Below, piece after piece: positions 50,589 to 53,750 of a stretch of DNA of 64,000 nucleotides. The DNA is taken from the NCBI GenBank assembly GCA_947371015.1, contig CANBNK010000003.1, forward strand, positions 1 to 64,000, given 5' to 3'. Every line of letters starts with the position of its first letter. The first letter of the stretch is position 1. The notes beneath the pieces were generated by a model. It saw only the letters and a list, made by a program, of their open reading frames with translations. It did not search any database and was not told where the DNA came from. Source of the stretch: Acetobacteraceae bacterium (lineage in GTDB: Bacteria; Pseudomonadota; Alphaproteobacteria; Acetobacterales; Acetobacteraceae). A program made the translations under genes and the position numbers.

Positions 50589-52151
50589 CTACCACTCGCC
50601 CAGGAAGACGCCGGCCTTCTTGTAGCTGTCGGTCCGCAGCTCGATCTCCTGCCACTCCACCGTGGTGCGCCGCTTCAGCCCGGTGAACCAGGCCAGCAGT
50701 CGCTCGCGCAGTTCGTCGCGCACGGCCGTATGGGCAGGGTCGGCGCCGAGGTCGTGGAATTCCTGCGGGTCGGCCTGAAGATCGAACAGTTGCGGCCGGA
50801 AGCCGCTGCTCCAATGCACGTATTTCCAGCGCTCGGTCCGCACCATCCAGGCATGGTGATGCCCGGTCGGTTGCCCCAGCCGCCGGCGCGCACCCTTGAA
50901 GGTCCAGTCCAACTCGCTGAAGGCGGCATCGCGCCATTCGACACCTTCACCGCGCGTGAGCGGCAGCAGCGAGCGCCCCTCCACCACATGCCGCGCCGGG
51001 TCCTGCGCCAGCGCGTCCAGGATGGTCGGCACCACGTCGATGGCCTCCACCAGCCGCGTGTCGGTGCTGCCGCGCGTGGCGTCGGCGGCGGCATCCGGGT
51101 CGTACAGGATGAAGGGCACCCGCTGGATGCAGTCGTGGAACAACTCCTTCTCGCCCAGCCAGTGGTCGCCCAGGTAGTCACCGTGGTCGGCGGTGAAGAT
51201 CACCAGCGTGTCCTGCCAGCGGCCCAGCGCCTCCATCTCCGCGAAGACCCGGCCGAGATGCGTGTCCAACTGGGTGATCAGCCCCTGGTACACCGGCTTC
51301 ACCGTGTCCTGGCATTCCTGACTGCGGAAACTCTCGGCCACTTCCTCATCCTGGAAGGCGCGCATGACGGGATGGGCGGCGTCGCTGCGTTCCTCGGCGG
51401 CGCGCTGCAGCGGCAGGCATTGCTCGGGCGTGTACATGTTGTGGTAAGGCGCCGGCGCCACGTAGGGCCAGTGCGGCTTGACGTAGCTGAGATGCATCAC
51501 CCAGGGGTCGTCGCCCTTGGCGCGCATGAAGTCGATGGCCAGGTCCGTGGTGTAGGCGGTCTCGCTGTGTTCCTCGGCGACGCGGGCGGGCCACTTCACG
51601 TTGCGCATCTTCCAGCCGGAATGCACGCCACCTTCCGGGTCCACTGTGCTGATGACGTAGTCGCTCCAGGGGTCGCGGCTGTCATAGCCCTTGCTGCGCA
51701 ACCACTGAGCATAGGCGCCGTTCGGCTCCGCATGGTGTCCGTCATAGCGGTCGATCGGGCGGAACCAGCCTTCCTCCACCAGCACCTTCAGCTCATCGGC
51801 GCCGTCCAGTTGCAGGCGGTTGATGCCGTGGCGGTCGGGCATCACGTGGGTCTTGCCGCACAGCGTCAGGTCGCGGCCGCTGTTGCGCAGGTGCCAGCCC
51901 AGCGTCACTTCCCCCACCGAAAGCGGCACGCGGTTATGCGTGGCGCCATGGGAGGAAACGTAGCGGCCGGTATAGTAGCTCATGCGGGAAGGCCCGCAGA
52001 TGCCGGACTGCACGAAGCTGTTGGCGAAGCGCACGCCGCGTTTGGCCAGCGCGTCGATGTTTGGGGTTTGGATATGCGGGTGGCCGGCGCAGGCCAGGTG
52101 GTCCCAACGCAGCTGGTCCGACATGATGAACAGCACGTTCTTGATGGCCAT
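50589..52151 (-). CDS. Sulfatase-family hydrolase (possibly phosphonate monoesterase type)
   Basis: Alkaline-phosphatase-superfamily enzyme of 520 residues. KNVLFIMSDQLRWDHLACAG holds metal aspartates; SGICGPSRMSYYTGRY is the CxPxR formylglycine site; later VIFTADHGDYLGDHWLGEKE gives the remaining metal ligands. The motif layout fits arylsulfatases and phosphonate monoester hydrolases; sequence alone does not separate them. No signal peptide, so cytoplasmic. A hairpin and a tiny ORF lie directly upstream and may control it. Confidence 0.9.
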   Translation of the reverse strand: MAIKNVLFIMSDQLRWDHLACAGHPHIQTPNIDALAKRGVRFANSFVQSGICGPSRMSYYTGRYVSSHGATHNRVPLSVGEVTLGWHLRNSGRDLTLCGKTHVMPDRHGINRLQLDGADELKVLVEEGWFRPIDRYDGHHAEPNGAYAQWLRSKGYDSRDPWSDYVISTVDPEGGVHSGWKMRNVKWPARVAEEHSETAYTTDLAIDFMRAKGDDPWVMHLSYVKPHWPYVAPAPYHNMYTPEQCLPLQRAAEERSDAAHPVMRAFQDEEVAESFRSQECQDTVKPVYQGLITQLDTHLGRVFAEMEALGRWQDTLVIFTADHGDYLGDHWLGEKELFHDCIQRVPFILYDPDAAADATRGSTDTRLVEAIDVVPTILDALAQDPARHVVEGRSLLPLTRGEGVEWRDAAFSELDWTFKGARRRLGQPTGHHHAWMVRTERWKYVHWSSGFRPQLFDLQADPQEFHDLGADPAHTAVRDELRERLLAWFTGLKRRTTVEWQEIELRTDSYKKAGVFLGEW

Positions 52152-52201
52152 CTGCGCGCCCCCTGGTTGGGGTGAGGTTAGCGCGATGTCAGAAAACGCA
52201 G

Positions 52202-52231
52202 AAGGCCTCGCCGGCGTCCCGGCGAGGCCTT
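52202..52231 (-). terminator. Terminator/attenuator-like hairpin
   Basis: AAGGCCTCGCCGG and CCGGCGAGGCCTT form a perfect 13-bp stem with a 4-base loop. Read on the minus strand it is followed by CTGCGTTTTCTG. It sits after the tiny ORF and 50 bases before the sulfatase start, so it either ends the transporter operon or attenuates the sulfatase. Confidence 0.7.
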
Positions 52232-52265
52232 CCCATTGCGTCTGCCGTTGCCGGCCGGCGCTAGC

Positions 52266-52343
52266 TCAGGAAGCCGTCCCCACGATGGTGGGAACGGAGA
52301 TCCAGGCCGCGGGCAAGCAGTGCGGCGAAGGGCAATGAGACAC
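52266..52343 (-). CDS. Putative 25-residue leader peptide with strong Shine-Dalgarno
   Basis: GTG start at 52343 preceded by AAAGGAGGTGATCCA, a near-complete complement of the 16S rRNA 3' end at ideal spacing. The peptide begins MSHCPSPHCLPAAWIS and ends VGTAS, with two cysteines and three prolines in the first ten residues. A hairpin follows its stop by 34 bases, then the sulfatase gene. The architecture resembles a regulatory leader peptide; alternatively it is a small expressed peptide or chance. No homologue could be checked. Confidence 0.5.
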   Translation of the reverse strand: MSHCPSPHCLPAAWISVPTIVGTAS

Positions 52344-52490
52344 TGGATCACCTCCTTTCAGTAGGTTTCGGATCACCCCAGCCTGCCTGCCCGCCGCCGC
52401 GTCGCGCAAGTGAATTCGCGCGGCGATTCGCGTCGTTTGGCCTGCGATTCACGCCCTTCGGCACCAGCGCCTCGGACGACCGCGGCCTGG

Positions 52491-53600
52491 TCACATCTCC
52501 GCGTAGGTGCCGTTGCGCCAGACGTAGAAAACGTAGTCCGGCACGGTGACATCGCCCTTCGGCGTAAAGCTGGTCTGCCCCAGCACGCTGCCCCACGGCC
52601 CCTGCCGCTTCAGCGCATCCGCCACCTTGCGGGCATCCACGGTCTTGGCCTTTTCCGCCGCCGCCGCCCAGATCTGCATGGCGCCGTAGGTGTACAGCAC
52701 ATAGCCTTCCGGATCGACATTGCGGGCGCGGAAGCGCTGCACCACCGCGGCTGCCGTGGCGCGCTTGCGCGGGTCGCTGCTGAAGGTCATCAGGCTGCCC
52801 TCGCCGGCGGCGCCGGTGATGGACCAGAACTCATTCGTCACCAGCGCGTCACCGCCGATCAGCGTGGCGTTCAGCCCCTGTTCCTTGGCCTGGCGGATGA
52901 TGAGCCCGGCTTCGGTATAGTAGCCGCCGACATAGATGACCTCGATGCGCTCCTGCTTCATCCGGCTGACGATGGCGCTGTAGTCGCGCTCGCCCGGCGT
53001 GTAGGCGCTGTACAGCGTCTCCTGCTTGCCGGCGGCGTTCATCGCCTTCTTGGTCTCGTCCGCCAGGCCCTTGCCGTACGCGGAGTTATCATGCAGCACC
53101 GCGACGCGCTTATCCTTCATGCTGCGCGCGATGTAGCCGCCGGCGACCATGCCCTGCTGGTCGTCGCGGCCGCACACCCGAAAAGTGTTCCAGCTGCCTT
53201 CATCCGTGTACTTCGGGTTGGTCGAGGCCGGGCTGATCTGCAGCACGCCTTCCTCGCCATAGACCTTGCTGGCGGGAATGGAACTGCCGGAGCAGTAATG
53301 CCCGGCCACCATCGCCACGCGCTGCCCGGCCAGCTTGTTGGCCACGCTGACCGCCTGGCGCGGGTCGCAGGCGTCATCCTCGATGGAGAGCGCCAGTTGC
53401 CGGCCCAGCACGCCGCCACGGGCGTTCAGGTCGGCCACCGCCTGCTGCGCGCCGATCTTCATCTGGTCTCCGGCGGCGGCGTTGCTGCCGGTCATCGGAC
53501 CTGCGCAGGCCACCTTGATGGGGTTGCTGCGATTCTGCGCGAAGGCCGGCAATGCCAGGCCGGACGCGGTGGCGCCCAGTATCAGTCGACGAGTGAACAT
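52491..53600 (-). CDS. Branched-chain amino-acid-type ABC transporter binding protein
   Basis: Periplasmic LivK-like binding protein of 369 residues. Signal peptide MFTRRLILGATASGLALPAF (cleaved after AFA), then SNPIKVACAGPMTGSNAAAG, QAVADLNARGGVLGRQLALS, and [27 protein letters not shown] lies before the ATG at 53600; an upstream in-frame start is poorer. Last gene of the liv-type operon, though a hairpin repeat separates it from livF. The true ligand may be an amino acid, amide or aromatic acid. Confidence 0.9.
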   Translation of the reverse strand: MFTRRLILGATASGLALPAFAQNRSNPIKVACAGPMTGSNAAAGDQMKIGAQQAVADLNARGGVLGRQLALSIEDDACDPRQAVSVANKLAGQRVAMVAGHYCSGSSIPASKVYGEEGVLQISPASTNPKYTDEGSWNTFRVCGRDDQQGMVAGGYIARSMKDKRVAVLHDNSAYGKGLADETKKAMNAAGKQETLYSAYTPGERDYSAIVSRMKQERIEVIYVGGYYTEAGLIIRQAKEQGLNATLIGGDALVTNEFWSITGAAGEGSLMTFSSDPRKRATAAAVVQRFRARNVDPEGYVLYTYGAMQIWAAAAEKAKTVDARKVADALKRQGPWGSVLGQTSFTPKGDVTVPDYVFYVWRNGTYAEM

Positions 53601-53621
53601 GCCCGTTCTCCTTTCTACGTG

Positions 53622-53750
53622 TGATACCGGCACGAGCCCTTGCTCGTGCCGCGGCGCCGAATGGCGCCCGCAACCAGTGTGGCGTAAGCCAAGACGGCGA
53701 AGGCCGGCGCGTCATGCCGAAGGCGTGCCTCCGGCACGACGCGTCTGAGG
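53622..53750 (-). repeat. Dispersed hairpin repeat, copy A
   Basis: Contains the stem GGCACGAGC-CCTT-GCTCGTGCC (53629-53650) and GGCGCCGAATGGCGCCCGC (53653-53671). A related copy of about 110-130 bases lies in opposite orientation at 60010-60140. REP/BIME-like. Here it lies inside the liv-type operon, between livF and the binding-protein gene, where it could modulate relative expression. Confidence 0.65.

Follow-up and report, generated by a model that had tools for sequence, protein, structure and literature searches.

A short reading frame with an unusually extended Shine-Dalgarno (SD) sequence lies on the minus strand of the DNA analysed here (the window, that is, the whole stretch of 64,000 nucleotides), between genes for a periplasmic binding protein and a sulfatase. 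The features of the locus are as follows, listed from upstream to downstream.

52491..53633, minus strand: upstream gene for a periplasmic binding protein (PF13458, Peripla_BP_6), a neighbour
52405..52410, minus strand: -35-like CTTGCG; CTTG(N) recurs at about the same distance in relatives
52203..52367, minus strand: RF01867 (CC2171) small RNA, matching the model over its full length (1-159)
52345..52358, minus strand: extended SD, AAAGGAGGTGATCC, 14 nt, complementary to the canonical 16S 3' tail
52343..52349, minus strand: P2 5' strand GAUCCAG, the SD end and the first base of the start codon
52266..52343, minus strand: mini-ORF, GTG start, 25 codons plus TGA; frame conserved, peptide not
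52332..52340, minus strand: P1 5' strand UCUCAUUGC, codons 2-4
52299..52305, minus strand: P2 3' strand CUGGAUC, inside the ORF at codons 13-15
52231..52239, minus strand: P1 3' strand GCAAUGGGA, overlapping the terminator stem by its final three bases
52200..52233, minus strand: intrinsic terminator hairpin with a TTTT-containing tail
50589..52151, minus strand: downstream sulfatase gene (PF00884, SGSH_C), a neighbour outside the element

The arrangement described in an earlier note on this DNA is present in full. The GTG (52343-52341) is positioned 7 nt from the GGAGG of the SD and opens 25 codons, translated as VSHCPSPHCLPAAWISVPTIVGTAS with cysteine codons at positions 4 and 9, that end at a TGA (52268-52266); a 15-bp hairpin with a T-containing tail (52233-52200) follows, and the ATG of the sulfatase gene, at 52151 on the same strand, lies beyond it. 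The SD is the complement of the canonical 3' tail of 16S rRNA (...GGAUCACCUCCUUU), a complementarity that rests on the canonical sequence since the draft genome is without a 16S gene. The match is far beyond chance: the 14-mer occurs once in the window, where 2.3 occurrences are expected only with 3 mismatches allowed, and is likewise unique in the 5.37-Mb draft genome, and the 29-mer running from the SD to codon 5 is found exactly in the genomes of 10 other species. A remnant of 16S rRNA on the plus strand was also considered, since CTGGATCACCTCCTTTC resembles the 16S 3' end, and was ruled out because the homology goes no further, an Rfam search of the window yields no rRNA, and the segment is a conserved part of RF01867.

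Membership and distribution of the CC2171 family

The segment 52367-52203 matches Rfam family RF01867 (CC2171, a Caulobacter sRNA) with 69.3 bits (E 7.7e-14 in the genome; gathering score 75), and the locus alone gives E 1.8e-13 in a permissive Rfam scan; the default Rfam scan of the window misses it. Membership of the window copy follows from orthology with a copy in the same genus (L042), which has the same neighbours and, at 76.0 bits, scores above the cut-off. Both the P1 closing helix and the terminator stem of RF01867 are conserved, and the 5' end of the small RNA is likely to lie a few nucleotides beyond 52367, further upstream. In work by Landt in 2008, CC2171 is said to be expressed as a small RNA in Caulobacter. 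The label "non-coding" does not describe the family as collected here, every copy of which has a conserved ORF; this coding content challenges the annotation of CC2171, not its homology.

Across Alphaproteobacteria, 148 distinct copies of CC2171 were gathered, providing 104 mutually divergent representatives. RF01867 is found in 61 of the 289 genomes sampled from the class and 116 of the 249 sampled from the bacterial family, nearly always as a single copy, and in all six genomes of the same genus; among 14 control genomes, Caulobacter is the only one with a match. The pattern of SD plus start codon occurs once per genome in 42 of approximately 86 alphaproteobacterial genomes sampled, in none outside Alphaproteobacteria among 299 genomes sampled across the phylum, and never in the reversed control. 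Two genomes (G012 and G244) each have two RF01867 matches, one with an MSHC-type and one with an MSHG-type start, suggestive of paralogues. Members of the bacterial family listed without the element mostly have genomes of ~2-3 Mb, and carriers mostly have genomes of more than 3 Mb; loss of CC2171 in reduced lineages is likely. On plasmids of Azospirillum oryzae and A. lipoferum (L175:1504-1731 and L178), the same SD box, GAAAGGAGGTGATCCAATGTCTCATGG, precedes a 59-codon ORF that has a signal-peptide-like start and lies upstream of a carbonic anhydrase gene; this is possibly a relative or a case of a captured ribosome-binding site (RBS).

With regard to the transcription unit, a terminator closes 146 of the 148 copies, and the stop codon of the mini-ORF always lies upstream of it, at a distance of 22-93 nt. 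A CTTG-type -35 and a CAT/TAT-type -10 are found at a steady upstream distance in many relatives; a sigma-70 scan of the window returned no promoter, and the -10 is weak in the genus. The neighbours are far less constant. By a coding heuristic applied to 139 loci, the next gene downstream has the same orientation in 78 and the opposite one in 61. A sulfatase-family ORF is downstream in only 14 loci, from near relatives. In the bacterial family the commonest upstream neighbour is a periplasmic binding protein, and the copy in Azospirillum lipoferum 4B (RF01867 match of 69.7 bits) follows a TRAP transporter, with the TRAP permease upstream. Because the neighbours vary and the terminator is near-constant, the element is best regarded as a gene of its own, and comparison of the copies makes it highly probable that CC2171 is a stand-alone transcript. 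There is no constant same-strand downstream gene of the kind that an attenuation leader requires, and comparative evidence indicates that the ORF is translated from a small transcript of its own, as in dual-function sRNAs.

Constraint on the frame and drift of the peptide

All 148 copies have a start codon beside the SD (GTG in 116, ATG in 27, TTG in 5), usually 2 nt past the GATC of the SD, and in all of them the first in-frame stop follows after 18-35 codons (sd 2.9), with TGA, TAG and TAA used 78, 37 and 33 times; the first stops of the other two frames scatter from 1 to 585 codons. The combination of SD, start and stop in range is found in 104 of 104 divergent representatives versus 24.7 expected from dinucleotide shuffles, and a stop in the same range is found in the other two frames in 14 and 31 of the 104. 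The covariance-model search favours conservation of the SD and start codon, but cannot bias the stop in this way, and loci found by pattern instead of by the covariance model fit in 20 of 20 cases, this set partly overlapping earlier genomes and close relatives. Any formal improbability overstates the significance of these counts, since the copies are related by descent. The use of three stop codons at differing positions implies turnover under constraint, and no part of the element varies less than the SD box. Given the conserved ribosome site and the open frame across relatives, the mini-ORF is very probably translated, as the earlier note had supposed, and the conservation that it suggested looking for in relatives is evident for the ribosome site, the ORF and the hairpin, and absent for the peptide.

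A comparison of 41 independent close pairs gives, for the part of the ORF past codon 5, 99 synonymous versus 252 non-synonymous changes, corresponding to a dN/dS of 1.07 (95% 0.87-1.33), with the changes distributed over the codon positions as 120/130/101. Thus, the purifying selection on the peptide that would be looked for in a dual-function sRNA is not seen past codon 5. The start of the peptide, MSHC, is the P1 strand itself, and reads MSSE, MSHG, VSHR or MSNE in other clades. The codon for Cys4 forms part of the P1 helix strand CAUUGC/U, and other clades have Arg, Ser, Glu or Gly at this position; Pro5 and the second Cys are lost even among close relatives (L004, L042). Sensing of cysteine supply by the translating ribosome, as had been suggested from the residues near the start of the ORF, is therefore not supported: Cys is not conserved, dN/dS is close to 1, and the start corresponds to the P1 strand. 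The conserved codons for a sensed amino acid that are typical of attenuation leaders are likewise missing. Indels inside the ORF show no enrichment for multiples of three (6 of 22), which fits a peptide that is free to change, but also implies that slips of the frame happen and are rescued. From these comparisons it is very likely, if slightly less so than that the transcript is free-standing, that the CC2171 mini-ORF is translated without its peptide being selected.

An RNA family listed as non-coding thus carries a mini-ORF that is conserved in frame, and not in sequence, across Alphaproteobacteria. Such an arrangement would be a natural bacterial case where the act of translation, and not the product, appears to be selected in a free-standing small RNA, and it makes the start and stop codons prime mutation targets for studying CC2171.

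Pairings, candidate mechanism and relation to known systems

Two pairings involve the mini-ORF. In the case of P1, codons 2-5 pair with the strand preceding the terminator, as evidenced by 26 double-change cells versus 6.1+-1.9 in shuffled data and by a covariation score of 0.204 versus at most 0.096 when the strands are slid. Exchanges on both strands include AUGAGAUU/AAUCUCAU (L033), CGAGAUC/GAUCUCG (L039) and CAUCGC/GCGAUG (L057). RNAalifold on a MAFFT alignment missed P1 because of its variable internal length, and the covariation was therefore counted directly. In the case of P2, GAUCCxG at the RBS and start codon pairs with CyGGAUC at codons 13-15, where x:y (base -1 : ORF base) is A:T in 56 copies, G:C in 10 of the 10 copies with GG at -1/+1, and T:A in 3. 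Within the ORF, stretches complementary to the RBS are enriched, with a mean z of -1.30 over the 104 representatives and in both clade groups; P2 itself is clear in ~60% of the copies, with other SD-complementary stretches, or none obvious, in other clades. For instance, in several clades outside Acetobacteraceae (L033, L034, L037, L142-L145, L150, L152, L165), GGAGCAACCTC/GGGGCAACCTCC-like stretches at the end of the ORF, encoding the peptide EQPS/EQPL, show complementarity to the SD and may stand in for P2. When the window RNA is folded, enforcing P2 is 7.4 kcal/mol worse than the unconstrained structure, and the structure with P1 nearly equals it; at this cost, P2 would be a transient or clade-dependent pairing in the window RNA. 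As the P1 5' strand sits in the P2 loop, the two pairings would either be mutually exclusive or form a pseudoknot.

The explanation that we favour overall, with moderate confidence, is that CC2171 is a stand-alone translated RNA acting as a ribosome-gated switch. The gene would span ~165-180 nt and consist of a promoter, a short 5' leader that in most relatives resembles UCAACAAC, a near-maximal SD, the mini-ORF and an intrinsic terminator. A frame that is kept over a peptide that drifts implies that the selected trait is for a ribosome to load, elongate over a limited distance, and stop before the pre-terminator strand. In the absence of a ribosome, P2 or P1 would shape the RNA; a 30S subunit caught at the extended SD, followed by the ribosome during elongation, would clear P2 and P1, such that the activity or lifetime of the RNA would follow ribosome occupancy. 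Any such activity would presumably be exerted in trans, as a base-pairing sRNA. Of these parts, the switch between P1 and P2, as suggested by the pairing patterns, is put forward tentatively, and activity in trans is slightly more doubtful still. A broader reading, which we consider unlikely, is that of a class-wide ribosome-gated riboregulator that combines a near-maximal SD with a CUGGAUC... stretch, resembling the 16S 3' end, inside its own ORF. Here, occupation by ribosomes would open P2 and expose the CUGGAUC... stretch, and the RNA might report or buffer the supply of free ribosomes, for example by touching other SD sites, with the peptide as a by-product.

The explanation along the lines of the earlier note, that the mini-ORF is a translated leader or attenuator of the downstream sulfatase gene responding to cysteine or sulfate, accounts for the order of SD, ORF, hairpin and gene on a single strand, for the Cys codons at 4 and 9, and for the sulfatase gene that immediately follows the element in the genus and in a few relatives. 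However, the terminator is constant, the element persists beside unrelated or oppositely oriented genes, the Cys and Pro residues are not conserved, and dN/dS is close to 1, making this explanation very improbable. Equally improbable is a purely non-coding sRNA in which the SD-like box pairs with 16S rRNA or mRNAs without translation. The invariance of the box and the Rfam listing as an sRNA agree with it, but a correctly spaced start codon and an in-frame stop within a narrow range in every copy, provided by three different stop codons, would be pointless without translation.

Somewhat less improbable, though still quite unlikely, is that the transcript is a small mRNA for a functional micropeptide of ~24 aa, an ordinary unannotated small protein. 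The 148 open frames with a strong SD and the recurrent MSH/MSS start would be expected of such an mRNA; the neutral dN/dS past codon 5, the coincidence of the conserved start with the P1 strand, and peptide sequences that are unrelated between orders argue against it. The strongest of the rivals, albeit unlikely, is a base-pairing sRNA in which the SD and mini-ORF serve solely to recruit ribosomes that protect the RNA or promote its turnover, without a switch, and the stop codon keeps ribosomes from running into the terminator. The constant position of the stop ahead of the terminator, the freedom of the peptide to drift, and the stability of P1 without P2 in the window RNA are all consistent with such loading, but the P2-type covariation between the RBS and the ORF interior suggests that access to the RBS is itself regulated, as in the ribosome-gated switch.

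In the literature searched, CC2171 is mentioned only twice, by the Rfam 15 paper and by a table of Mesorhizobium sRNAs, neither mention being functional, and a conserved ORF is nowhere described for it, which is not proof of novelty. No text matched the element by its SD motif, and the titles retrieved looked like uses of 16S primers. Schrader et al. 2014 (PMC4117421) report that two Caulobacter RNAs earlier predicted to be ncRNAs are in fact translated.

Compared with the Rfam description of CC2171, the locus shares the full-length match, including the SD box, the P1 strands and the terminator, but Rfam lists a non-coding sRNA gene where a mini-ORF is conserved in all 148 distinct copies, and the P2 pairing is absent from the printed consensus structure. 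Attenuator leaders of the trpL type similarly combine a mini-ORF with alternative pairings and a terminator hairpin after it; CC2171 differs in having neither a constant downstream gene nor conserved regulatory codons, and in having a terminator in nearly every copy that is tied to no structural gene. Dual-function or coding sRNAs of Alphaproteobacteria, such as Pos19 of Rhodobacter and rnTrpL of Sinorhizobium (PMC5036791, PMC10117765), are likewise short trans-encoded RNAs with a translated small ORF. For these, however, a particular ORF or peptide is described (for example, peTrpL), whereas the peptide sequence of CC2171 is not under selection. Extended pairing between SD and anti-SD near the start codon is also known from Staphylococcus aureus (PMC13009471), where it is a general property of the mRNAs of one species; in CC2171, by contrast, it is confined to a single, fixed gene for a small RNA within a class, and the exact 14-mer of the locus has a single occurrence in this genome.
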